Source: Elusimicrobiota bacterium (GTDB lineage Bacteria; Elusimicrobiota; Elusimicrobia; UBA1565; UBA9628). From it: a stretch of DNA of 64,000 bases. Below, in pieces: positions 14,767-62,611 of this stretch (positions are counted from its first letter, which is position 1; each line of letters opens with the position of its first letter). The notes under the pieces were generated by a model. The model did not search any database and was not told where the DNA came from. It saw nothing but the letters and a program-made list of their open reading frames with translations. The stretch lies in contig JACQPG010000064.1 of assembly GCA_016207665.1 (NCBI GenBank), positions 24,397 through 88,396 on the forward strand, given 5' to 3'. The position numbers were made by a program, and so were the translations under genes.

Positions 14767-15357
14767 TCAAGCCTTGATTGGCTTTTTTTCGCGGGATACT
14801 ATCCACCGGGAGGCTTGAGAAAGGTCGCGAAACGCCCGATCAGGGCGGATCCGGAAAGCCCGATCCCGCCCACCCTTGCCCGTCTTGACCAGCAAGGCGG
14901 CGCAACCCGCGTTGCGCGCGGCGCGGATGTCGGTGGTCGTATCCCCCACCAGATAGCAGCGGGCAATATCCAGCTTGAATCGCCTGGCGGCCGCCTTGAG
15001 CATCCCGATGGCGGGCTTGCGGCAGGCGCAGGCGCGCTTACGCCCGAATCCGGGATGATGGGGGCAATAGTAGATCGCGTCGATTCTCGCGCCCCTTTGC
15101 CGCAACCTGCGATTCAACAGCCTATGGACGGCGTCGACGCCCGAGCGGCTGATCAAGCCCCGGGCGATCGCCGATTGATTGCTGACCACGATCACCTTGA
15201 GCCCCGCATGGCGCAGCCGGCGGATGGCCGCGGCCGCCCCGGGGATGATCCTGAGCTGGCTGGCTTGGCGCAGATAATGCACGTCCTCGATGATCACGCC
15301 GTCACGGTCGAGGAAAACGGCGCGGGAGCCTTGCAAGCCTCTCATAAGTCGATCCAT
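14767..15357 (-). CDS. gmhB: HAD-family D-glycero-D-manno-heptose 1,7-bisphosphate phosphatase
   Basis: AVFLDRDGVIIEDVHYLRQASQLRIIPGAAAAIRRLRHAGLKVIVVSNQSAIARG...YYCPHHPGFGRKRACACRKPAIGML; Zn-loop Cys/His pattern typical of GmhB. Confidence 0.9.
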   Translation of the reverse strand: MDRLMRGLQGSRAVFLDRDGVIIEDVHYLRQASQLRIIPGAAAAIRRLRHAGLKVIVVSNQSAIARGLISRSGVDAVHRLLNRRLRQRGARIDAIYYCPHHPGFGRKRACACRKPAIGMLKAAARRFKLDIARCYLVGDTTTDIRAARNAGCAALLVKTGKGGRDRAFRIRPDRAFRDLSQASRWIVSREKKPIKA

Positions 15358-15388
15358 CGCCAAGCGCCGCTCATGTTCTTTGGATGAA

Positions 15389-15394
15389 ATTATA
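15389..15394 (-). promoter_or_regulatory. Perfect -10 hexamer TATAAT on the minus strand upstream of gmhB
   Basis: Plus-strand attata; about 31 bp upstream of gmhB ATG in the 64-bp divergent spacer; -35 weak. Confidence 0.4.
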
Positions 15395-15421
15395 GTTCTT
15401 TGAAAAAGATAAAATTCCGTC

Positions 15422-16420
15422 ATGGCGCCGTTCTTTTCCATCATACTGCCGACCTACAATCGAGCGCATATGATCGCCAGCGCCCTCGAATGCGTGCGTC
15501 GCCAGACCTTCCGGGACTACGAGGTGCTGATCGTCGACGACGGCTCCGTGGACGACACGCCGGAGGTGATCAAGCGTTGGACCTCGGATCCTCGATTCAA
15601 ATACCATCGCCTGGAGAAGAACATCGGCAACATGCATTGCCGCAACCTCGCCCTGGGCATGGCTACGGGAGACTGGATCACCAATATCGACTCCGACGAT
15701 TTTTGGACGCTCGACAGGCTGGAATGCTTCGCCCGCTATTTCCAGGAATATCCCAACGCCGGCTTCGTGTTCTCCAACGGCTATCTCTACCGCTACGGGC
15801 GAGTCATCGGCATGGCCTTCGATCCGAGCCGCCCCATCCCGGAAGGCCGCGTGCCCGGCCATTACGCGGTCGGGGAGGAGTACCTGCCTTATCTCACGAC
15901 CAACCTCGCCATCCCCCGCGAGCTCTATAGGAAGTACGGGCATTATCGCAAGGACATGGTGATCCTGGACAACGAGCTCTACGCGCGCATGCTCGCCGAC
16001 GGCGTCGAGGTCGGCGTGATCCGCAAGCCCTTGGCGGTTCGGCGCATCCATGGCGGCCAGGTGACGCACAAATGGATCGAGGAGTATCCCGAGGCGGTCG
16101 AGGCCCTGAAAGCCGGGGGAGCGCCGGAGGCCGTCATGGAGCTCGAGCGCGAGAAACTCGTCCATGAGTTCGCCAATTATCTCTGGCGCAACCTGCAGCC
16201 GCGACAGGCCCGTGAATTCATGCTCAAGGAATTGGGGCCCAAGGCGGGGCGGTCCTGGCTTTATCGGCTCACCTATCTTCCCGAACCCGCGCTTGCCGCC
16301 GGGCGCCTGATCAGGCGCTGGTATTTGATGGCTCGCCATCATCCTTGGCTGGCCTCGGCGGAGGTGCGGGAGATCTATGGACTCATCAATCCGCTCATCG
16401 AGCAGGAGCGGACAAGATAG
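15422..16420 (+). CDS. GT2 family glycosyltransferase
   Basis: MAPFFSIILPTYNRAHMIASALECVRRQTFRDYEVLIVDDGSVDDTPEVI...NIDSDDFW. Confidence 0.92.
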   Translation: MAPFFSIILPTYNRAHMIASALECVRRQTFRDYEVLIVDDGSVDDTPEVIKRWTSDPRFKYHRLEKNIGNMHCRNLALGMATGDWITNIDSDDFWTLDRLECFARYFQEYPNAGFVFSNGYLYRYGRVIGMAFDPSRPIPEGRVPGHYAVGEEYLPYLTTNLAIPRELYRKYGHYRKDMVILDNELYARMLADGVEVGVIRKPLAVRRIHGGQVTHKWIEEYPEAVEALKAGGAPEAVMELEREKLVHEFANYLWRNLQPRQAREFMLKELGPKAGRSWLYRLTYLPEPALAAGRLIRRWYLMARHHPWLASAEVREIYGLINPLIEQERTR

Positions 16421-18026
16421 GCGGCCTTTCCGGCCTCATCTCCGACCTTTGAAGCTCGGCGTCATCGAGCAGCAGGCTCGGCGAGATCACCGACATAGGC
16501 GCTCCCAATACGAGATTCTGCACGGCCGGATCGTCTCCCGCCGTGAGTATGCTGTCCATCAGGTCCAGCGGGGTGCCTACCAGATCCAGATCCCGGACCA
16601 GGATGGTCCGGCCGGTCTGCGCCTCCACGAGATATACCTGGCCCGGCACCAAACGGATAGAGCCATGACCCTCCGTGCCCTGTTGCTGCGTGAAATGACG
16701 CAATTGCCTCACCCATAACCCATAGGGCTTTCCGCGCCTGCGGCACTCTTGCCTTAACCGCTCCAGCAGCGAGCTCACCGGAGCCGGCTTCTCCGATCGA
16801 AGGAACAGATTGCCGGGCAACCCTTCGGGCCAATAGCCGGCCATGGATCTTCCATGGCCGTTGGATCTCGGGAATCCGAGCACGGGATAGCGCGACAAGA
16901 GCAGCCCCTGAAGCACCCCTCGCTCGATCAAGGTGGCCGGACGCGGAGGCAGCCCCTGATCGTCCCAGTCGTAATGTCCCGCGAGCTCCACTCCTTGGAA
17001 CCGGCTCCGGGTCGGATCGTCGATGAGGCTCAGTTCCTCCGGAAGCACCAGCCGCCCCAACTTTCCGCGAAACACTTGCGAGCCTCCGGGGTTGCGCTGT
17101 TCCTCCCCCGACAGGCGCAGCGCCACGCCCAGCACCACGGCGGCGGCGACCGAGGGGTCGATGAGGGCTGGAGCGCTGAAAGGCGAGGTGGTCTTGGCCA
17201 AACGCAGCAGCTCCAAGTCCCGAGACATGTCGCCGACCAAGCGCTGCAGGTCCTCGCCGGAAGGCATCGCCTCGGGCGTCCTGAAGACTAGCCTCCTGTT
17301 GGCGAAAAGCCTCATGCCGTCAGCGGCCATATCCACCATATCCAAGGATATCTCGAGGGAGGAGCGGGGAAAGTCGACCTTGCGTCCCTCTGTGTCCCGA
17401 AAGCGGGACCACTGGTGGCGCGCGCGGAAGGAAGCCTCCGTCTGCAGCGCGGGCTTGCGCCCGAAAGCGCGCGCCGCATCCTGGCAGAGGCTCTCGAGCC
17501 GGGCGTAATCCCACGGCATGGCGGGCGGCTCGGCGCGCCACACCTTGACCGACTCCCGGCTTAGATCGTCGGTATCGTATTCGGCCTTGCCGCGCGCGAC
17601 CCTCAGGGCCTGTTTTCGGAGGAATTCCGCGACCGCGGACTTGTACGCACCATCGAGCAAGCGCCACAATTCGTGGCGCAGGCCGAGCTCGTCGTCGTCG
17701 AAGGGCAATTGGCGGGCGACGAAGCCGCTCGAGGGCCCGGTCGGATGATTGTCCAAGGAGTAATCGCCCACGCGCAGATCGGGCGTCACGAAACGTTGGC
17801 GGGCCCGAAGAGCTCCCAAGCGGCCCCCCAGCGAGCACTTGAGCTCCCATGTCTCGAGGTCGATGGCGGTCAGGCTGACATAATACGGGGAAGGGTAACC
17901 CTCGGCCTTCAGCTCGTTTTTGGCGCGCGAAAGCTCCGCCTCCATCGCCCGCTCCAGTCCCGATCCCGCCGCGGGCGCGGCGAGGCACAGCCAAGCCCAC
18001 ATCCCGATCAACGCTTGACGGCGCAT
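16395..18026 (-). CDS. Exported TldD/TldE (peptidase U62)-like protein lacking the metal-binding motif (TldE-like)
   Basis: Signal-peptide-like MRRQALIGMWAWLCLAAPAAGSG; collinear with 18916..20565 (SQVFRGKLGRLVLPEELSLIDDPTRSRFQGVELAGHYDWDDQGLPPRPATLIERGVLQGLLLSRYPVLGFPRSNGHGRS) but VVLGVALRLSGEEQ replaces HEALGHKLEG and the C-terminal Cys is absent. Confidence 0.8.
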   Translation of the reverse strand: MRRQALIGMWAWLCLAAPAAGSGLERAMEAELSRAKNELKAEGYPSPYYVSLTAIDLETWELKCSLGGRLGALRARQRFVTPDLRVGDYSLDNHPTGPSSGFVARQLPFDDDELGLRHELWRLLDGAYKSAVAEFLRKQALRVARGKAEYDTDDLSRESVKVWRAEPPAMPWDYARLESLCQDAARAFGRKPALQTEASFRARHQWSRFRDTEGRKVDFPRSSLEISLDMVDMAADGMRLFANRRLVFRTPEAMPSGEDLQRLVGDMSRDLELLRLAKTTSPFSAPALIDPSVAAAVVLGVALRLSGEEQRNPGGSQVFRGKLGRLVLPEELSLIDDPTRSRFQGVELAGHYDWDDQGLPPRPATLIERGVLQGLLLSRYPVLGFPRSNGHGRSMAGYWPEGLPGNLFLRSEKPAPVSSLLERLRQECRRRGKPYGLWVRQLRHFTQQQGTEGHGSIRLVPGQVYLVEAQTGRTILVRDLDLVGTPLDLMDSILTAGDDPAVQNLVLGAPMSVISPSLLLDDAELQRSEMRPERPPILSAPAR

Positions 18027-18919
18027 ATCTCCATGGAGTCCCGGGTGTCAAGATAGAGGAGCTTATCGCCGATATCGAGCCAGCGCACCGCCGCGGACAC
18101 GGAGGCGTGCACGGGCCGGGGATAATGCCGCAGCCGGCTCACCCAATAGGCGTAGGAGAATATCCTCCCGAAAGACTTCACCAGGACCGGCTCCAGACCG
18201 TGGTCTCGGAGCATGCGGCGCATGCTGGACCGGTCGAAGTAGTAGATATGGGCCGGTCTTAATCCCCACCAATAGCCGCGCAAAAGCCGGGCGGAAAGAC
18301 TGCCGATATCCGGCGTGACGAGATAGAGCACGCCTCCGGGACGCAGCCACTCGGCGGCGCGGGCCAAGGCCGCCTTGGGATCGGTCAAGTGCTCGATCAC
18401 GTCGATGAGGGCGATCGCGTCGAAGCTGCCGGCCGGAAAACGAGTGGTCCGCAGGAAATCCTCGGCATAAACATCCAGCCTGAAACGCCGCCTGGCGACC
18501 TCGCAGGCCCACTGGGAGAGATCCAGTCCCGCCACGTCGAAATCCGCCCTCGCCGCGTTGAGGAAATATCCCGTGGCGCAACCGATCTCAAGAAGACGGC
18601 CCGAACCGACGAATCTCTTGATCGTGCGCAGGCTTAGATGCGCGTTGATCGAGCGGCTGGAGCTCTCCGCGAGATAGCTTTCATCGACGCATGCCCCGTA
18701 GCCCTCGGCCAGGCACGCCGCCGAAGGCCTCGGATTGGTGTAGACCAGCCCGCAGTCGAGGCAGCGCACGATCCGGCCATAATCTTGGAACTCGTCGGTG
18801 GTCGCGGCGAACACGGCCGAGTCCTCGGCCCGCGCGGTATAAGGGCGGTCGAAGAGCGCCCGCCCGCCGCGGCTCCCGCAAAGATTGCAGGCCACATCCT
18901 CCAGAAGTGGAAGGCTCAT
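18008..18919 (-). CDS. Class I SAM-dependent methyltransferase with N-terminal zinc-ribbon-like CxxC pairs
   Basis: CNLCG...CLDCGLVYTNPRPS then GRLLEIGCATGYFLNAARADFDVAGLDLS...IALIDVIEHL. Confidence 0.9.
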   Translation of the reverse strand: MSLPLLEDVACNLCGSRGGRALFDRPYTARAEDSAVFAATTDEFQDYGRIVRCLDCGLVYTNPRPSAACLAEGYGACVDESYLAESSSRSINAHLSLRTIKRFVGSGRLLEIGCATGYFLNAARADFDVAGLDLSQWACEVARRRFRLDVYAEDFLRTTRFPAGSFDAIALIDVIEHLTDPKAALARAAEWLRPGGVLYLVTPDIGSLSARLLRGYWWGLRPAHIYYFDRSSMRRMLRDHGLEPVLVKSFGRIFSYAYWVSRLRHYPRPVHASVSAAVRWLDIGDKLLYLDTRDSMEICAVKR

Positions 18920-20565
18920 CGTGTTGACTCCTGCATCGGCGACGGCAGCAGCGGAGGCCGCGCCCGATCCTCGGGCAGGCGCTGCAATTCGACCTCGGAG
19001 ACCAGGACGCTCGGGGCTATCTGAGCCACGGGCACGAAGCCCGATTCAGCCCCACACGAGAAATAATTGGAAAGGGCCGAGTCATCGGCGGCCGCGACGA
19101 TGCGATTGAGAACCACCAGGGGCGTGCCCACCATGCTGGCCCCGCGCACCAAGGTCTTGCGCCCGGTCGAACCGTCCACGCGATAGACGAGCCTCGGCCG
19201 GACCTCCAAGGTCTGGGGCGCCTCGCGGGTGTTGGGATTATCTCCGCCCTGGGCTCCGACCAGCCAAAACCCATAGGCCTTTCCCGCGCGCCGTATCAGA
19301 TCGAGGAGCCTGTTCTCCAGCTCGGGTCTGGAGATTGGGTCCTCCGCCTGAACGACCAGGTTGGCCATGCGTCCGGTAGGCCTTAGCAGGGCGTCGGAGC
19401 GGCCATGCCCGTTGGAGCGGGGGAAGCCCTTGAGAGGCCAACGCGACATCAGAAAATTGATCAATATCCCCTTATCGACCAGGACCACCGGCCTGGCCGC
19501 CACTCCCTCGGAGTCGAACTCGTAATGGCCGTGCAGGGGAACCCCTCGGAATTGCGCCAGGGTGGGATCGTCCCAGAGGCTGAGAAATTCCGGTATGATC
19601 CTCTTGCCGATCAAGTCCCGGAAGACCTGGCTCTGCCGCGGCTCCCTTTGCCTCTGGCCCTCGAGCTTATGGCCCAAGGCCTCATGAAACAGCACCCCCG
19701 TGAATTCGGGATCCAGTATGGCCGGCGCGGCCATGGGAGCCTGGATGGGAGCATGCCTCAAAACCGCGAGCGTGCGGGCCATGTCCCGCGCCTTGGCCTC
19801 CAGCGCCTCCACGGCGGGAAGATCCTCAAGATCGCGAATGGACCAGCTTTCTTGCTGCTCAAGCCTCATCCCATCGTCGCTACGGGTAACGGCCGTCAGG
19901 GCCAGCGAGCCCGGCACATGCTCCTCCGGCGTGGCGATTCGCGTGCCCTCGCTGGTCAAGAGCAAGCGCCTGGACCCTCTCAGCCTCAACGAAGCCCGGC
20001 TATCCTGTATCTCTGGAAACTCCAAGAAAACCTTCGAGACCCTTTGCACCAGGCTTCTCGCCCGATCGTGATCGAAACGCGCGGGCGGTTGCGCCCGCGC
20101 GTGTGCCGTCGCCGGCTCGATCGAGAAGTCGTCCAAGGGCTGCTGGACGAAATCCACCATACGTCGCGCCTTTTTCTCCAAATAGCCGGCGACGGCGCTC
20201 TTATAGGCCGCGTCGGTAAGCGACCAGAGACTTTGACGCAAAGCCCGGTTCTCCAAGGGGGCGGCCGAGTGCCAGCCTTGGAAGGCCAGCTCAGTGTTGT
20301 CGAAGTGCCTGTCTCCGTAACGCAGCTCAACGAACAAGGTCCTGGCCGAATCGTCGTATTCGTTGAGCAGATCGCCGAAATATCCGTTGACCTCCAGGCG
20401 CCTTTCGTCGACCAGCCGATAAGCGAGGAAATAGGGCGGACCGAACGGCTTTTGCCTCAAGCTGGTCATGGAGCGTTTCATCTCGGCCTGCATCTGCGAA
20501 AAGGCGGCCTCGTCCGAGGCCCTGGCCGGAGCGATCAAGAAGAGAAGGACGATGAACGCCCGCAT
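18916..20565 (-). CDS. Exported TldD-like (peptidase U62) metallopeptidase with intact HExxxH
   Basis: Signal-peptide-like MRAFIVLLFLIAPARAS; GVLFHEALGHKLEGQRQREPRQSQVF; C-terminal Cys in NYFSCGAESGFVPV at the position of the TldD Cys ligand. Confidence 0.85.
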   Translation of the reverse strand: MRAFIVLLFLIAPARASDEAAFSQMQAEMKRSMTSLRQKPFGPPYFLAYRLVDERRLEVNGYFGDLLNEYDDSARTLFVELRYGDRHFDNTELAFQGWHSAAPLENRALRQSLWSLTDAAYKSAVAGYLEKKARRMVDFVQQPLDDFSIEPATAHARAQPPARFDHDRARSLVQRVSKVFLEFPEIQDSRASLRLRGSRRLLLTSEGTRIATPEEHVPGSLALTAVTRSDDGMRLEQQESWSIRDLEDLPAVEALEAKARDMARTLAVLRHAPIQAPMAAPAILDPEFTGVLFHEALGHKLEGQRQREPRQSQVFRDLIGKRIIPEFLSLWDDPTLAQFRGVPLHGHYEFDSEGVAARPVVLVDKGILINFLMSRWPLKGFPRSNGHGRSDALLRPTGRMANLVVQAEDPISRPELENRLLDLIRRAGKAYGFWLVGAQGGDNPNTREAPQTLEVRPRLVYRVDGSTGRKTLVRGASMVGTPLVVLNRIVAAADDSALSNYFSCGAESGFVPVAQIAPSVLVSEVELQRLPEDRARPPLLPSPMQESTR

Positions 20566-25077: not shown

Positions 25078-26052
25078 ATGACTGAGCGCAGCGGAAGCGG
25101 ATTTTGGACGGCTCAGCGCGTCCTGGTCACCGGGGGCCGGGGGTTTCTCGGCTCGCATGTCGTCGAACGCCTCAAGGCTCTCCGCCCCAAGGTCTTGATA
25201 GTTCCGAGCCGCCGAGACTGCGACCTGACCTCCCTGCCGGCCGTCGAGTCGCTCATCAAAAAGGAAAGGCCCAGCATGGTCATCAACCTGGCCGCTGTTT
25301 GCGGAGGTATAGGAGCCAATCAGGCTGAACCCGGGCGCTTTTTCTACGAGAATATCATCATGGGCGCCCAACTCATGGACGCCTCTCGACGCCTCGGCGT
25401 CGAAAAACTGCTCCAGGTGGGCACGGTCTGCTCCTACCCTAAACATACCCCGGTTCCTTTTGAGGAAGAGTCATTATGGGACGGCTACCCCGAGGAGACC
25501 AACGCCCCTTATGGAATAGCCAAAAAGGCGCTCCTGGTCCAGGCTCAGGCGTATCGGCAGCAATACGGATTCAACGCCATCTATATCATCCCCATCAATC
25601 TCTACGGCCCGGGCGATCACTTCAACCTTAAAACATCGCATGTGATCCCGGCCCTGATTCGTAAATGCGCCACCGCCGCCGAGACCAGCGCTCGCTCCAT
25701 CGAATGCTGGGGAACCGGGAAAGCCACCCGGGAATTCCTCTACGTGGAGGACGCGGCGCGGGGACTCTTGATGGCCGCCGAGCGCTACAATAAACCGGCC
25801 CCGATCAATCTTGGTTTCGGCGGAGAAATCTCGATCAAGGAGTTGGTCGAGCTCATAGCGAAGCTTACTGGCTTCAAGGGAGAGATACTTTGGGATAGCC
25901 GCAAGCCCGACGGCCAGCCTCGTCGGCATCTGGAGGTCTCCAAGGCGCTCAAGGAGTTCGGCTTCAAGGCGGAGACAAGCCTCGAGGAAGGGCTCAAGAA
26001 AACCGTCGCATGGTATCGCAGCCAGGTCAAGGCCGGGGCCTTGACTGAGTGA
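25078..26052 (+). CDS. fcl: GDP-L-fucose synthase
   Basis: RVLVTGGRGFLGSHVVERLKAL...VINLAAVCGGIGANQAEPGRFFYENIIMGAQLMDASRRLGVEKLLQVGTVCSYPKHTPVPFEEESLWDGYPEETNAPYGIAKKALL...NLYGPGDHF. Confidence 0.9.
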   Translation: MTERSGSGFWTAQRVLVTGGRGFLGSHVVERLKALRPKVLIVPSRRDCDLTSLPAVESLIKKERPSMVINLAAVCGGIGANQAEPGRFFYENIIMGAQLMDASRRLGVEKLLQVGTVCSYPKHTPVPFEEESLWDGYPEETNAPYGIAKKALLVQAQAYRQQYGFNAIYIIPINLYGPGDHFNLKTSHVIPALIRKCATAAETSARSIECWGTGKATREFLYVEDAARGLLMAAERYNKPAPINLGFGGEISIKELVELIAKLTGFKGEILWDSRKPDGQPRRHLEVSKALKEFGFKAETSLEEGLKKTVAWYRSQVKAGALTE

Positions 26053-27788
26053 TGCTCTCGAGCCTTCCCGTCACGCTCGCGCTTCAAGCGGCCCTTCTCG
26101 CCGCCCCGGCCGCCCCGGTCGATCTCTCAGCCAAGCTCGCCGAGCTGCCGGTCGCGAGCGCCGCGGGCGCGATGTCTCCCCGGCTTTCCCAAAACGGAGA
26201 CGAGATCATACTGAGCTGGCTTGAGCCCATCGAGGGCGCCCCGGCCGAGCTCAAGGACGACGCCTTCGAGCTCAAATGGGGCCGGCTTTCCGCCTCCTCG
26301 GGCTGGTCGCGGCCTCTTTCAGCGGCCAAGTCCCTTCGCATGTTCGCCAACACCGCGGACATGCCCTCGGTATTTCCAGCGAAAGGAATCTTTTTCGCCC
26401 ACTGGCTTGAGAAGATCAACGAACAGCCCTATGCCTATGACGCGTTGATCGCCCAAAGCCGAGACGGCGGCCGGACCTGGCGCCATCTCGGCAGCCTCAG
26501 GCGGGATTCGGGCCGCAAGGAGAACAACTACGACGGGTTCCTTTCCTTCCTCCCGGAAGGCGGCTCCGCGCGCGCTTTTTGGATCGACGGACGCAATGAC
26601 AGGGGTGAGGAGGACAATTACCAGTTGAGAACCGCGAAGATCGCGACCAGCTTGCGCGAGGAAGCGGTTCTCGACGGATCGACCTGCTCCTGCTGCGATA
26701 TAGGCTCGGCTCTCACGGACAAGGGACCCGTGGTGGTCTACCGCGGCCGCAGGGATGGAGATATCCGGGACATCCATATCGTCGCCCGCAAGGGCTCGGG
26801 CTGGTCTCAACCACGGCCCGTGCATACAGACGGCTGGCAGATCGCGGGCTGCCCGGTCAACGGCCCGCAAGCGGCGGCGTCCGGTCCGCTGCTGGCGGTC
26901 GCCTGGTTTTCGGGCGCCGGGGGAAGGGATTCGGTGAAGCTCGCATTTTCGCGGGACTCCGGCCAGACATTCGCGCCACCCCTCGAGCTCGACGATCTCT
27001 CCCCCGGAGGCCCTATCGGCCGCGTGGACGTCGCGCTAGCCGGGGGCGAGGCCTTCGTCTCCTGGCTGGGGCGCGCGGACGAGTCCGGCCAGGGCGTTCT
27101 CTTTCTGCGGCGCGTCTCGCCTTCCGGCCTGGCCAGCCCCATCGTCAGGATGATGCCCATCGACGCGGGCTGGCGCTCGGGCTTTCCTCAGCTAGTCGCG
27201 CGCAAGGACGAGCTGCTGTTGGCATGGACGGGCCTTCCGGACAAGGAAGACGCTCCGACCCTGGGCGTGCGGACCGCCCGGCTGGCCCTGCGCGACATCC
27301 CTCCAGCCACCGGAATCCCACCCTCGACCACTCCATCGGCCGCCTTGAGTGCCGATGAGATCATGAAAACGTCGTTCAAGGACTTGGCCGGCAAAGAGAC
27401 CCGCTTCTCCGACCTGGGCGGTAAGCTGCTCCTGGTCAGCCTTTGGGCCACCTGGTGCGAGCCCTGCCATAAGGAACAAGCCGAGCTTGCCGAGCTCCAT
27501 CGCCTCTATTCCGCGAAAGGACTTTCCATCATCGGCATCAACCTCGACCTAAGAAGACATCGCGCCAAGGTGGAGAGCTTCGTCAAGGAAAGAAGCCTTC
27601 CCTACGCCGTCTGGCTCGATCCCAAGAGCAAGGCCCTGAGCCTCTTCGCGACCAACGGGGTACCCTCCACCTTCCTCATGAACCCCAAGGGCGAGATACT
27701 ATTCCGCAAGACCGGCTTCCTCAGGCTCATAGGGTCGGAACTGGAAAAGACTATCGCCCGATCGCTCAGCGCGGCTCCTCGCCCATAG
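26049..27788 (+). CDS. Exported fusion: sialidase/BNR-like beta-propeller + C-terminal TlpA/AhpC-TSA thioredoxin-like domain
   Basis: Asp-box-like repeats (SRDGGRTWRHLG, SRDSGQTFAPP), CSCCD and GCPVNGP motifs, then LLLVSLWATWCEPCHKEQAELAELHRLYSAKGLSIIGINLD (WCxxC thioredoxin). Start GTG 26049 or ATG 26052. Confidence 0.87.
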   Translation: MMLSSLPVTLALQAALLAAPAAPVDLSAKLAELPVASAAGAMSPRLSQNGDEIILSWLEPIEGAPAELKDDAFELKWGRLSASSGWSRPLSAAKSLRMFANTADMPSVFPAKGIFFAHWLEKINEQPYAYDALIAQSRDGGRTWRHLGSLRRDSGRKENNYDGFLSFLPEGGSARAFWIDGRNDRGEEDNYQLRTAKIATSLREEAVLDGSTCSCCDIGSALTDKGPVVVYRGRRDGDIRDIHIVARKGSGWSQPRPVHTDGWQIAGCPVNGPQAAASGPLLAVAWFSGAGGRDSVKLAFSRDSGQTFAPPLELDDLSPGGPIGRVDVALAGGEAFVSWLGRADESGQGVLFLRRVSPSGLASPIVRMMPIDAGWRSGFPQLVARKDELLLAWTGLPDKEDAPTLGVRTARLALRDIPPATGIPPSTTPSAALSADEIMKTSFKDLAGKETRFSDLGGKLLLVSLWATWCEPCHKEQAELAELHRLYSAKGLSIIGINLDLRRHRAKVESFVKERSLPYAVWLDPKSKALSLFATNGVPSTFLMNPKGEILFRKTGFLRLIGSELEKTIARSLSAAPRP

Positions 27789-29085: not shown

Positions 29086-29103
29086 CATGGTGTCGTCACC
29101 ATG
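29086..29103 (+). promoter_or_regulatory. Hairpin CATGGTG-TCGT-CACCATG containing the start codon of the 29101 gene
   Basis: Perfect 7-bp inverted repeat; the right arm ends with the ATG at 29101-29103. Confidence 0.6.
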
Positions 29104-30594
29104 GCAGCTCATCGAGCCACCCGCGAATCCGCCGGCCCGGAAATCTCCTGCTATAACGATTCCTATGTCAACGACATACGGCTGAAGCTCAAGGCGTATT
29201 TCGAGCAGCATGCCCAGGAGAGGGACCGCTGGAAGAGCCGCTCCCGCTATTATCATGAACGCATCAGCCACCTCGTGCGAGGGCTGATCCCCGCTGGACA
29301 AAAGGTCGCCGAGATCGGATGCGGCACCGGCGATCTCCTATCCGCCTTGTCGCCCTCGGGGGGGATGGGCATAGATTTCTCCCATCGCATGATCGAGATC
29401 GCGCGCTCGAAATATCCGGCCCTCCAGTTCACGGTGGACGATTTGGAGCAATTAGGGTCACAGGAGCCCTGCGACTACGTGGTGCTCAGCGATGTTCTGG
29501 GCTCCCTGGCCGATGTCTGGCTCGGGCTGCGCCAGCTTCACAAGCTCTGCCATCCGGGAACGCGTGTCATCATCACCCATTACAATTATCTTTGGGAACC
29601 CCTGCTGCGGATGAGCGAGGCCCTGGGACTCAAGGCCCGGCAGCCGCTACAGCATTGGCTTCCTCTGGCGGATATAGAGAATCTGATGGCCCTCAACGGC
29701 TTCCGCGTGGTGCGCAAGGGCTATTCCATGCTGTTACCCATATGGCTGCCCGGCCTATCTTATCTGGTCAACCGCTTCCTGGCCCCTATTCCGGGACTGC
29801 GCCGGCTCTGCCTGGTGCAATATTTGGTGGCCAGGCCGGAGCTTCCCCGGCCTCAAGCCCCCAAACCGGAGCCCAGCGTCTCCATCGTCGTGCCCTGCCT
29901 CGACGAGGAAGGGCATATCCTGCCCTTAGTCGAACGTCTTCCCCGCTTGGGAGCCTTCACGGAGGTCGTGTTCGTCGATGGCGGCTCCACGGACGGGACC
30001 GTCCAGAAGATCGAGAGAGTGCTCAGCGAGGGCCGCGAGGGTTTCCGCTTCAAGCTGATACACCAAGGCGGCAGGTTCGGAAAAGGCGACGCGGTGCGCA
30101 AGGGCTTCGCGGCCTGCTCAGGCGAGATATTGATGATACTGGACGCCGATCTATCGGTGGCTCCGGAGGACTTGCCGAAGTTCTACCTGGCTTTGATCGA
30201 GAGCCGAGGAGAGCTCATCAACGGCTCGCGGCTCAATTATCCCATGGAAGACGAAGCCATGCGCTATCTCAACAACATGGGCAACAAACTCTTCGGGATG
30301 GCGCTCTCTTGGCTCATCGACCGCCACGTGCGCGACACGCTCTGCGGGACCAAGGCCTTGAGCCGGGAGCATTATGAAAGGATCAAGACGCAGCGGGATT
30401 ATTTCGGGGAATTCGATCCCTTCGGCGATTTCGACCTGCTCTTCGGCGCCGCGCGGCTGGGCCTGGAGATAGTGGACATGCCGGTGCGCTATCGAAGCCG
30501 AGCCTATGGGGCGACGAAGATATCGCGCTTCAAGCACGGCGCCCTCCTGGCGCGCATGTGCCTGGTGGCCATGCGCAAGCTCAAGTTCGCCTGA
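29101..30594 (+). CDS. Bifunctional SAM methyltransferase - GT2 glycosyltransferase fusion
   Basis: N-half VAEIGCGTGDLLSALSPSGGMGIDFSHRMIEIARSKYP (class I MTase); C-half VSIVVPCLDEEGHILPLVERLPRLGAFTEVVFVDGGSTDGT...MILDADLSVAPEDLPKFY (GT2). Confidence 0.9.
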   Translation: MAAHRATRESAGPEISCYNDSYVNDIRLKLKAYFEQHAQERDRWKSRSRYYHERISHLVRGLIPAGQKVAEIGCGTGDLLSALSPSGGMGIDFSHRMIEIARSKYPALQFTVDDLEQLGSQEPCDYVVLSDVLGSLADVWLGLRQLHKLCHPGTRVIITHYNYLWEPLLRMSEALGLKARQPLQHWLPLADIENLMALNGFRVVRKGYSMLLPIWLPGLSYLVNRFLAPIPGLRRLCLVQYLVARPELPRPQAPKPEPSVSIVVPCLDEEGHILPLVERLPRLGAFTEVVFVDGGSTDGTVQKIERVLSEGREGFRFKLIHQGGRFGKGDAVRKGFAACSGEILMILDADLSVAPEDLPKFYLALIESRGELINGSRLNYPMEDEAMRYLNNMGNKLFGMALSWLIDRHVRDTLCGTKALSREHYERIKTQRDYFGEFDPFGDFDLLFGAARLGLEIVDMPVRYRSRAYGATKISRFKHGALLARMCLVAMRKLKFA

Positions 30595-30597
30595 GCC

Positions 30598-33231
30598 TTA
30601 TTTCTTAGAGGTTATCTCGAATTCGGCATGGCTCGGGGAGGCTCCCGCCGATCCGAAGAGCACCGCCGGCTCGATCTTGCGCCCCATGGCCTGGGCCTGT
30701 TGATAAAGGGCGCCCAGGTTCTTCTTGGCCAGCTCATAGCCGGGCTCGATCTCCAGGGCGCGCTTGTAGGCGGCCTCGGCCTGGCCGAACTTCTGCTGCA
30801 TGAAATAGGCGTTGCCTAGATACCAATACCCCTCCGCCGTCTCATGCCGATGCACGGGCAACGACTCGCCCGCCACCTCGGCATACTGCTGATAGGCCAG
30901 GAGCTTGTTGCGGACCAGGTCCATGGCGACCAGCTTGGGATGGGCCTGGCATTTTTCGGCCCTTATGTTCTCCTCGTAGACCTTGGCGGCCATGTCGAAC
31001 TGCTTTTTCCACATGTAGATCTGCCCTATGCGGTAATAATTGGGGGAGAATACCGGATCGATGGCCTGATACATCTTATAGCGCGTCATGGCGCGCTCCA
31101 TGTAGTGGGGAGCCTCGTCTGCCCGGCCGTTGTTGAGCGCCCATTCCGCCCTCTTTAGGTGCAGGTTGCCCACTTGATGATGCATCTGCACGTAGTTCGG
31201 AGCTAGGCGCCTGACCTTGTCATAGGCGTCCAGGGCGCGCTCATAATCGTCACGGACCTGGCCTTCCTTGTCGCCCCACGCCGGGTTGTTGATCTTGCGC
31301 ATGTCGAAACGATCGTTATAGACATTCCCCATGAAATACAGGGCCATCACGAAATTGGGATTGAGCTCATTGACCTTGTAATAGTCCTGCAAGGCCTGCT
31401 CCCAGCGCCGCTCCTTGGAATGGAAAATGGCCATGTTGTGATGCACGTCAGCCTTGAAATAGCCCCAGAACCAATACATGGGGCCTCCGGATGACCTGAA
31501 ATAGGCGGCCGGCGGCAGCGCCGCGGCTAGGATGACCAGGGGCACCAAGGGATTTTGCGAGAGAACGATGAGATAGACGAAGGCCGCGCCGAGCCCCAAC
31601 ACGCACGCCCCCATGACGCCCCAAGACAGCCACCACTGCCATATCTCGCCCGTCACGCGGCTTTGCATCACCTGGGCATAGCTAGGCCCCGGCAGGGCGG
31701 TGAATTCCTTGAGTATCAATCCGCAGATCCATAGCACGGCGATCAGGGCCAAGCCTCGCGCGGGCCAAATCAAGAATTCAGAAATCCCCTTGAGGATGGC
31801 CGAGAAACCGGCCGGTTGCTCCGCGGCGACCGGCGCTTCCCCAGGGAGCGGAGCCTGGGACTGGCGCAGCTCATGCAGCTCATAAAGACCCTTGCCCCGG
31901 GCCAGATTGACGATCATCCCCGAGAGAAGCCCCATATACACGCCGGAGGAGACGAAGCGCAGGCTGACGTCGGTGAAGTTATGCCCCAGCATGCCCATGA
32001 AGGCGATGATGTAGCCGGCGATGTCGAAAGCCCTGGGCGGGGGACGCCCGTCCTTGAGCGACAAGGTGGTGGTCAACTGGCCCAAAGACCTGAAGCCGAT
32101 GACCAGGGTGCTGAAGAGAAGCCAAAGGAATATCCCGAATCCGAGTATGCCGTTGTCGAAGAGCTGCTCGAGATACTCGTTCTCCGAGTGGTCGGTCTCG
32201 GTATTATGCTTGCCCTCGATGTGGAATATGGGCGGGCGGCGGAAGGCGGGATAAATGGGCGGGAAACTCCCCACCCCCGTGCCGATCAGGGGCTGGGTGC
32301 GGATCATCTCCCAAGTGCCCTCCCAGGTGAAAAGGCGGAAATTGATGGAGACTATGTTGCCCGCGCTCACCCGATAGGCGAGAATCACCAGAAGCCACAG
32401 CGCCCCGGCCCCGAAAATGCCGACCAGGGCCTTGCGATAGGGGGCGACCATCTCCTTGAAGTAGATCAGCGAGATCACCACCGTGAAGACCAGCACCATG
32501 GCCATGCCGAGCCAAGCGCCCTTGGTCTGGGTGCCCACCAGATCGATGAGCAGCATCGCCATCAACGGCAGAAGGCTGAACTGGCGGCTCTTGACGTATT
32601 GGGTCAGGATGATGGGAAAGACGATGACCAGGAAATCCCCGAAGAAATTCGGGTTGCCATAGGTGGAAAAAACGCGCTCCCCGAAAGCGCCTCTCCAAAT
32701 GAAGGGATCCAATCCCCGGCCCGGTCCCCGCATGTTCGGGCCCATGAAGAACTTGATGTCGATGAATTGCACGAACCCGTAGAGCACGGCAATCCAGGCC
32801 GTCCGTATCAGCCAACGGGTGAGCTTCTGGGCCGCCGGGTCGTCGAATTCGTAGATGACGATCAGGGCCACGCTCATGAAGAAAAAATGGCGCAGGAAGA
32901 AATCCACGCTGGCCATATTGTAGGGGGCGTGGATGAAGGAAAAGATGCCGACACCCAGATAGGCCAGGAAGGGCGACAAGCAGACTAGGTCCTGCCGGGT
33001 GAACGCGGCGCCTCCGGCCTCAAGAAGCCGGGCCACCCATAGCACCAGCAGCGCCAACCCGCCCATCTGCATCATGGTGATCTTGACCTGGGCTGAGTCG
33101 TAGGTGCGCAGATAAAAGAGCGAGGAGATGAGCAGATACAATATGGGTAGCCAGACGATGATCACCCGGTGGGCGAAGATCTCGGCGGTCAGGGCCGCGA
33201 GGCCCTTGCGCTTAGCGCCTTTGTCGGACAT
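30598..33231 (-). CDS. O-antigen ligase/polymerase (Wzy_C)-like multi-TM protein with C-terminal TPR repeats
   Basis: STYGNPNFFGDFLVIVFPIIL...TKGAWLGM...GTGVGSFPPIYP...HSENEYLEQLFDNGILGF (ligase-type periplasmic pattern) followed by TPR-like helices (ALYFMGNVYND, YWYLGNAYFMQQKFGQAEAAYKRALEIEPGYELAKKNLGALY). Confidence 0.87.
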   Translation of the reverse strand: MSDKGAKRKGLAALTAEIFAHRVIIVWLPILYLLISSLFYLRTYDSAQVKITMMQMGGLALLVLWVARLLEAGGAAFTRQDLVCLSPFLAYLGVGIFSFIHAPYNMASVDFFLRHFFFMSVALIVIYEFDDPAAQKLTRWLIRTAWIAVLYGFVQFIDIKFFMGPNMRGPGRGLDPFIWRGAFGERVFSTYGNPNFFGDFLVIVFPIILTQYVKSRQFSLLPLMAMLLIDLVGTQTKGAWLGMAMVLVFTVVISLIYFKEMVAPYRKALVGIFGAGALWLLVILAYRVSAGNIVSINFRLFTWEGTWEMIRTQPLIGTGVGSFPPIYPAFRRPPIFHIEGKHNTETDHSENEYLEQLFDNGILGFGIFLWLLFSTLVIGFRSLGQLTTTLSLKDGRPPPRAFDIAGYIIAFMGMLGHNFTDVSLRFVSSGVYMGLLSGMIVNLARGKGLYELHELRQSQAPLPGEAPVAAEQPAGFSAILKGISEFLIWPARGLALIAVLWICGLILKEFTALPGPSYAQVMQSRVTGEIWQWWLSWGVMGACVLGLGAAFVYLIVLSQNPLVPLVILAAALPPAAYFRSSGGPMYWFWGYFKADVHHNMAIFHSKERRWEQALQDYYKVNELNPNFVMALYFMGNVYNDRFDMRKINNPAWGDKEGQVRDDYERALDAYDKVRRLAPNYVQMHHQVGNLHLKRAEWALNNGRADEAPHYMERAMTRYKMYQAIDPVFSPNYYRIGQIYMWKKQFDMAAKVYEENIRAEKCQAHPKLVAMDLVRNKLLAYQQYAEVAGESLPVHRHETAEGYWYLGNAYFMQQKFGQAEAAYKRALEIEPGYELAKKNLGALYQQAQAMGRKIEPAVLFGSAGASPSHAEFEITSKK

Positions 33232-61166: not shown

Positions 61167-62611
61167 CTCGCGTTGACGGCCGGGGCTCGCAATATGGGGC
61201 AATACCTCTCTCCTTCGGTCCGCGCTTGAGCCGCCCTTTCCGGCTGGCCCAAGGCGTTGAATATCCTTTCGATGCCGGACCAGGTGGAGGCGCGGTATGG
61301 ATTGAGCCGCGCCGAGCGCTGAAGATGTTGGAGGGCCTCCCGGAGGGAAGCCGTATTCTTGGAAGCCAGGTGGAGCTGCGCCGCGAATGTCTCGGCCTCG
61401 GCGTCCTTGGCCTTGGCGAGTGAATCATGGAGAAGAGCCAAGGCCTTCGCCCTATCGGGGTCGGCCACGGCCCGGGCCTTAAGGCGGTCCGCTTGCCAGC
61501 GGGTCCAGACCGGATAGCTCAAGGTCCCGGCTATCAAGAGCACGGCAAGACCTCCCGCCAACCTCATCCTGAGCCGCACATTGACCCCTTCCGGGCTCTG
61601 CGGGATGGACGAGGCCGCGAAATAACAGAAAAGCCACAGATTCGCCGGCACGGAGAGAGGATAATCCCACAGCGATTGCACCAGCACCGCCACGGCGCCG
61701 AATCTCTTGTGAGCTCCGCCCCGGCGCAGGAAGTGGAACAACCCCGCCGCCCAAAGGCCGAGGAAGGGAAGGCCGCACTCGGCCGCGGTCTCCAGGAAAT
61801 GCTGGTGCGCGAACATCGTCGATAACGGCCGACCCGATTGCTCATAAGCCGGAAGGACATAGGCGAACGCTCCCGGACCGAAGCCCGTCAGCGGCCTATC
61901 CCAGATCATCCGCGCCGCGGCGCTCCACCACTGCCATCGATGCATGACCTCGGGGGATTGAAGCTTGGCGTAGACGGCGACCAGGGCCAGGAAACCGACG
62001 GCCAGCCCGAGCCAGTAGAACAGGGTCGAACGATCCCTGCGCGTGAGAACCAGGGCCCCGGCCAGCCCCAACCAGGCGCCGGCGCTTCGAGCCCAAATCA
62101 GGACCAGCACGAGGGCCGAAGCCAACAGCCAGTCCTTCCTCTGTACCGATAGAGGCAGCAGCAATAGTATCGTGCCGGCGAACACGTTGCGGTTCAGGAA
62201 GGTGCTCGACGGCTCAGAAGCCTCTCGCCAATATTGATGGAAGGCCAAAAGCACCAGGATCCAGCCCGCGGCCTGCACCGCGATGTCGATGCGGCTCCTG
62301 GCGTCCTTGGAAGCCATGGCCGTGGCCGGAAATATCCAGAGCCCGAGGAGAAGCGTCCTCCAGGCCGGGCCTGAATAGGTAGGAACGGGGCTCAGCCACG
62401 CGGAGACGGCGGAGAGGAGGGCCAGAGCCCCGGCCCAGGCCAACCAGCGGCCTTGCGGAAGGGGAAGAAAGCCCAAGGTCAGACGTCCGAGCGCCCAAGC
62501 GGCGCAGCCCCACGTCACGCAGAGCCAGAGAAGGGATTGAGCCCAGAGATCCCAACCCGCCCGAAGCAGCGGTCCAACCGCGACGAGCAGGCCGATCAGG
62601 AGCGGCAGCAC
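61163..62611 (-). CDS. O-antigen ligase/polymerase (Wzy_C / PglL-like) with C-terminal helical-repeat tail
   Basis: FLNRNVFAGTILLLLPLSVQ...WARSAGAWLGLAGALVL...GFGPGAFAYVLPAYEQSGRPLSTMFAHQHFLETAAECGLPFLGLWA; C-term TPR-like LREALQHLQRSARLNPYRASTWSGIERIFNALGQPERAAQ. Confidence 0.87.
   Translation of the reverse strand: MLPLLIGLLVAVGPLLRAGWDLWAQSLLWLCVTWGCAAWALGRLTLGFLPLPQGRWLAWAGALALLSAVSAWLSPVPTYSGPAWRTLLLGLWIFPATAMASKDARSRIDIAVQAAGWILVLLAFHQYWREASEPSSTFLNRNVFAGTILLLLPLSVQRKDWLLASALVLVLIWARSAGAWLGLAGALVLTRRDRSTLFYWLGLAVGFLALVAVYAKLQSPEVMHRWQWWSAAARMIWDRPLTGFGPGAFAYVLPAYEQSGRPLSTMFAHQHFLETAAECGLPFLGLWAAGLFHFLRRGGAHKRFGAVAVLVQSLWDYPLSVPANLWLFCYFAASSIPQSPEGVNVRLRMRLAGGLAVLLIAGTLSYPVWTRWQADRLKARAVADPDRAKALALLHDSLAKAKDAEAETFAAQLHLASKNTASLREALQHLQRSARLNPYRASTWSGIERIFNALGQPERAAQARTEGERYCPILRAPAVNAR

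Follow-up and report, generated by a model that had tools for sequence, protein, structure and literature searches.

An apparently undescribed pair of TldD/TldE-like proteins with signal-peptide-like N termini, one intact and one without a metal site, recurs in many bacterial phyla

TldD/TldE has been described for the most part as a protease of the cytosol, above all in the maturation of ribosomally synthesized and post-translationally modified peptides (RiPPs). We analyzed two TldD/TldE-like genes in a 64,000-nucleotide stretch of DNA from an Elusimicrobiota bacterium (contig JACQPG010000064.1, positions 24,397–88,396; hereafter, the window), whose products, P0003 and P0001, probably form an exported metallopeptidase, a heterodimer in the cell envelope with P0003 as the catalytic and P0001 as the non-catalytic subunit. 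In the closest described system, E. coli TldD/TldE (PmbA; MEROPS M103; PDB 5NJ5 series), TldD binds its metal through His262, His267, and Cys454 and uses Glu263 as the base, TldE retains no ligand, and the helix of TldD, unlike that of TldE, is distorted by an extra residue in HExxxH (PMC5810440). Other paired members of the family, compared here by description only, have specialized roles: Amm12/Amm13 of ammosamide (PMC12424672) and LmbIH/LmbQ of lincosamide (PMC4351081) pathways. The available parts of these reports place them in natural-product clusters and, unlike for the pair studied here, describe no export. We found no description of a secreted TldD/TldE pair in the open-access literature; prior notice is possible in a 2022 family review (Vobruba et al.).

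P0003 is encoded at 18916–20565 and P0001, a protein of 543 amino acids, at 16395–18026. A first-pass annotation of the window had reported long open reading frames (ORFs) at both places without giving a strand; both are present, on the minus strand. The P0003 ORF extends up to 20595, which would give 559 amino acids from a TTG start, but since the signal-like segment begins at Met11 (20565), this residue is the likely start. Both proteins match PF19289 (PmbA_TldD_3rd, the C-terminal PmbA/TldD domain), P0001 with 72 bits and P0003 with 88 bits against a cut-off of 22. They share 37% identity across 543 columns (E = 6e-93), ruling out chance similarity, and the likeness that the annotation had noticed across the C-terminal halves, although real, is not limited to them, as the N-terminal halves align too. 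No sequence-level match to PF01523, the canonical N-terminal domain, was found in either protein, though the fold matches cover that half. P0003 also falls below the curated NCBIfam TldD equivalog cut-offs (66.6 bits versus 635 for NF040952 and 51.8 versus 513 for NF008006), and P0001 has no match to the NCBIfam PmbA equivalog model.

At the sequence level, the match of P0003 to E. coli TldD (5nj5_A) has an E value of 4e-15 and that to PmbA is weak; for P0001, the E value against TldD is about 1e-5. AlphaFold2 models made with alignments of relatives as input have predicted local distance difference test scores of 91.5 for P0003 and 92.3 for P0001, and a predicted template modeling score of 0.90 in both cases. 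Foldseek returned significant matches solely to TldD or TldE/PmbA chains, aligned over nearly the whole length of both models, among them 5nj5_C (E = 3.1e-33) for P0003, whose best match is E. coli TldD, and 5njf_A (E = 4.3e-28) for P0001. As modeled, then, both are full-length proteins of the TldD/TldE fold, sharing that fold with the E. coli proteins over almost their full length at only ∼20% identity.

As in E. coli TldD/TldE, one subunit has HExxxH and the Cys and the other has neither. P0003 contains HEALGH (H304, E305, and H309; 19669–19686, minus strand), aligned to TldD H262–H267, and Cys514 within SCGAESG (19054–19056, minus strand), the equivalent of TldD Cys454 and the predicted third metal ligand. 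In P0001, both elements are gone: the C-terminal Cys is missing, and HExxxH is replaced by VVLGVALRLSGEEQ (∼17097–17138, minus strand), a degenerate motif helix from which one residue has been deleted. The first-pass annotation had described this asymmetry, and its positions for the retained motif are exact. We extended the comparison to a joint alignment of exported copies, 145 intact and 129 degenerate, these being counts of sequences, some of which come from one genome (for example, L077 and L110, or L109 and L252; G, C, and L numbers are our handles for genomes, contigs, and loci). His-Glu-His is found in 145/145 intact copies and the Cys in 144/145, and HExxxH is absent from all 129 degenerate copies. 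Since HExxxH was itself the sorting criterion, what is independent of it is that every pair combines an intact with a degenerate copy and that the distant Cys tracks the motif. R409, the equivalent of the E. coli brace residue Arg362, is invariant in the intact copies, and the Gly beside the metal Cys is likewise kept, both as in E. coli TldD. Relatives of P0001 retain the same degenerate motif, and all six window-type degenerate copies of the joint alignment have the one-residue deletion, which would take out the extra, helix-distorting residue of TldD. Conservation of the degenerate copy and its own motif rules out pseudogene decay of P0001.

The N termini of the window pair, MRRQALIGMWAWLCLAAPAAGS and MRAFIVLLFLIAPARAS, each run from a basic start through a hydrophobic core to residues resembling A-x-A. 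Scored by a 10-residue hydrophobic core with a mean Kyte-Doolittle value of at least 2.0 at the expected place, which is not a dedicated signal-peptide predictor, 140/144 intact and 123/129 degenerate copies have such a core, mostly after Met-Lys/Arg and before Ala-x-Ala-like residues. By this measure, the signal-peptide-like N termini reported by the annotation are present on both copies and conserved in relatives. The canonical proteins are also encoded in the same genome (G000), TldD on contig C13 and TldE on contig C25. These cytosolic proteins belong to the same superfamily and are likewise one intact and one degenerate, but they are encoded on separate contigs, match PF01523, and have no signal-like N terminus. 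Since canonical TldE is on C25 and P0001 falls in a separate clade, P0001 is not this genome's TldE. In one family of Elusimicrobia (f3; for example, G003, G007, G010, G016, and G022), all eight sampled genomes (1.4–1.7 Mb) encode the exported pair and no PF01523 protein; the exported unit is therefore independent of the cytosolic one.

The loci examined in the 151 genomes of our phylum sample include an exported intact copy in 64 genomes, that of the window among them; 62 of the 64 also have the degenerate copy, although in G132 the two are on separate contigs. The remaining two, G054 and G104, are members of a single family. A cross-phylum contig scan used patterns from intact copies only, so that partner presence was not selected for. 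It recovered intact copies in records labeled Acidobacteriota, Planctomycetota, Bacteroidota/Ignavibacteria, Gemmatimonadota, Zixibacteria, Obscuribacterales, Proteobacteria, and Myxococcales, an approximate list since contigs of metagenome-assembled genomes may be misassigned, and the degenerate partner is adjacent at most loci. The exported pair is thus more general than the annotation saw, occurring in many phyla rather than as a local oddity, and at homologous loci an intact copy is paired with a degenerate one and not with a second intact one. Carriers include cultured soil bacteria, Edaphobacter or Granulicella (L126, L132, and L144). It is a minority trait in the samples from other phyla (9/60 genomes around G169 and 5/61 around G171, seeds included). 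Apparent partner losses at L070, L130, L135, L139, L156, L158, L161, L174, L176, and L177 were set aside, as these loci are at or near contig ends; in the cases checked, the partner was cut or on another contig.

Unlike E. coli tldD and tldE, the two genes of the exported pair are adjacent in one operon, with the intact gene first and on the same strand in 126/126 measurable pairs (median gaps of −1 and 2 nucleotides). They are also twice fused, each time as an intact half (HExxGH, CGAESG) followed by a degenerate half: in L183 (695–4261, plus strand) as an open frame of 1189 codons and in L224 (2275–5610, minus strand) as a protein of 1111 amino acids. The halves of the two fusions most resemble unfused pairs from separate groups: L187 in the case of L183, and the L120/L122/L133 group in that of L224. 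On this ground the fusions look independent, and, like the operon arrangement, they lend indirect support to a physical heterodimer. Locus L175 (5950–13044, plus strand) contains two exported pairs in tandem, in the order intact, degenerate, intact, degenerate.

Where did the degenerate subunit come from? A tree that includes the canonical proteins separates exported intact and degenerate copies from canonical TldD and TldE (100/100), so the pseudoenzyme of the exported pair is no exported form of TldE. The likeness to E. coli TldD/TldE drawn by the annotation thus stands for the fold and the asymmetric metal site but not for the identity of the degenerate copy; far from placing in unrelated U62 branches, both window proteins belong to a single exported branch. 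Within that branch, window-type degenerate copies group with window-type and solitary intact copies, apart from the other degenerates (joint clade, 96/97). P0001 probably arose from an intact exported copy. Given that P0001 is 37% identical to its intact partner versus 23–29% to other degenerates, that the helix deletion is specific to the window type, that three genomes (G262, G263, and G264) carry both kinds of pair, and that solitary intact copies exist in G160–G164, a second origin of metal-site loss in the window sub-lineage is likely, though unproven. The alternative history, in which all exported pseudoenzymes have one origin and P0001 is a divergent member, is possible but doubtful: approximately unbiased tests, run on sets smaller than 98 rows, failed to reject a single degenerate clade (p = 0.387, 0.163, 0.308, and 0.339), yet 0/200 bootstrap trees in two analyses united all degenerates, and the identities, the type-specific deletion, and the genomes with both kinds of pair speak against it.

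Across 145 loci, no single neighbor is conserved with the exported pair, which therefore behaves as a self-contained two-gene unit. The annotation had placed the pair inside a glycan locus, and this setting is real and conserved, but in the window's sub-lineage rather than among exported pairs generally; the survey rules out a universal glycan neighborhood, and the conservation rules out an accidental one. Pfam matches around the window pair are mostly to glycan and sugar-nucleotide enzymes. In 13 genomes (G246, G268, G265, G255, G158, G266, G270, G271, G263, whose contig is also L109, G272, G072, G096, and G114), the gene immediately upstream of the intact copy encodes a ligase-like Wzy_C-TPR protein. 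Its orthologue in the window (30598–33231, minus strand; Wzy_C match at 32125–32562, that is, G000:C34:56521–56958) is ∼10 kb upstream of the intact gene and 55–61% identical to the pair neighbors of relatives. In G276 and G236 the Wzy_C-TPR gene is not adjacent to the pair, eight further loci end too close to judge, and L112, a basal member of the sub-lineage, is without this glycan setting.

If both proteins reach the periplasm or cell surface, probably by secretion through the general (Sec) pathway, P0003 and P0001 could assemble there into a hollow two-subunit shell. P0003 would hold a single metal through two His and one Cys, P0001 would form the remaining half of the shell with no metal site of its own, and unfolded or linear peptide ends would thread into the shell and be clipped. 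In the window sub-lineage, the unit may work in the envelope together with the Wzy_C-TPR locus for glycan transfer, whose peptides or glycopeptides are possible substrates. We favor this heterodimeric protease because of the family and fold, the asymmetry of the metal site, the invariant gene order, the fusions, the hydrophobic cores, the conserved pseudoenzyme motif, the Wzy_C-TPR neighborhood, and the known mechanism of the E. coli TldD/E heterodimer (PMC5810440). Several observations weigh against it. The clamp tether of E. coli TldD, Lys456/Asp272, is not retained in exported intact copies: Asp272 has given way to other residues (mostly His or Gln) and Lys456, in 142/145, to Ala. R315 and E517, which are nearly invariant in these copies, may stand in for the tether with the charge reversed. 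A partner is not needed in every case, given that the genomes G160–G164 encode a solitary exported copy, the intact one. Finally, most exported pairs are outside glycan loci, making a glycan-linked substrate sub-lineage-specific at best.

The solitary copies, and the report of an active archaeal TldD homodimer noted in PMC5810440, would fit a P0003 that works alone as a homodimer, with P0001 as a decaying or regulatory paralogue instead of a subunit. We regard this as improbable, since the degenerate copy has its own motif conserved across the order, is present in many phyla, and is always encoded directly downstream of the intact gene or, twice, fused to it, and a decaying gene would not be expected to show such conservation and fusion. 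It is also unlikely that the pair is not a peptidase but an amide hydrolase that acts, much as an N-deacetylase would, on amides of amino sugars or glycans and trims the glycan of the surrounding locus. The conserved glycan neighborhood of the window's sub-lineage would suit it, and the family includes N-deacetylases, to judge from the title of Vobruba et al. (2022) as cited in PMC10885120, as well as LmbIH and LmbQ of the lincosamide pathways (PMC4351081); however, most exported pairs have no glycan neighborhood. That the pair matures an exported RiPP-like peptide, from a precursor gene nearby or elsewhere, appears very improbable. Characterized TldD/E relatives do process RiPP or scaffold peptides, according to PMC5810440, PMC10885120, and PMC12424672, but the Pfam matches around the window pair are, as noted, mostly to glycan and sugar-nucleotide enzymes, and no RiPP-modifying enzyme or precursor was found among conserved neighbors, which were not searched systematically for small ORFs.

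The exported pair is probably a widespread, and apparently undescribed, two-subunit cell-envelope protease that recurs in many bacterial phyla. If so, this branch adds an envelope role for the two-subunit shell protease, in a version kept by small genomes that have lost the cytosolic one. Because natural fusions exist and one subunit has apparently lost its metal site more than once, one can ask directly why the enzyme needs a dead half, and the Wzy_C-TPR linkage offers a concrete place to seek substrates. More speculatively, the pairing of intact and degenerate copies may have arisen repeatedly: in cytosolic TldD/TldE, in the broad exported pair, and in the window lineage from a solitary exported TldD-like ancestor, with the last becoming specialized as the envelope protease of a Wzy_C-TPR locus for glycan transfer, possibly protein O-glycosylation.

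Other genes accompany the window pair. A methyltransferase (18008–18919, minus strand; Pfam Methyltransf_23) is encoded between P0001 and P0003, as also in G072, G096, G272, and G274 (∼60% identity). A GmhB-like phosphatase of the haloacid dehalogenase (HAD) type (14767–15444, minus strand) and homologues of a probable family-2 glycosyltransferase (15422–16420, plus strand) recur beside window-type pairs, on the side opposite the Wzy_C-TPR gene. The glycosyltransferase ORF overlaps a minus-strand ORF at 15371–16342; since the former has homologues at related loci and the latter has no family match, the plus-strand ORF is more likely the real gene. Elsewhere in the window, a fused protein (29101–30594, plus strand) combines methyltransferase and family-2 glycosyltransferase domains, and another (26049–27788, plus strand) has a C-terminal AhpC/TSA-type thioredoxin domain preceded by weak BNR-repeat matches. 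A second Wzy_C match is found near the far end of the window (∼61751–62122, minus strand; G000:C34:86147–86518).

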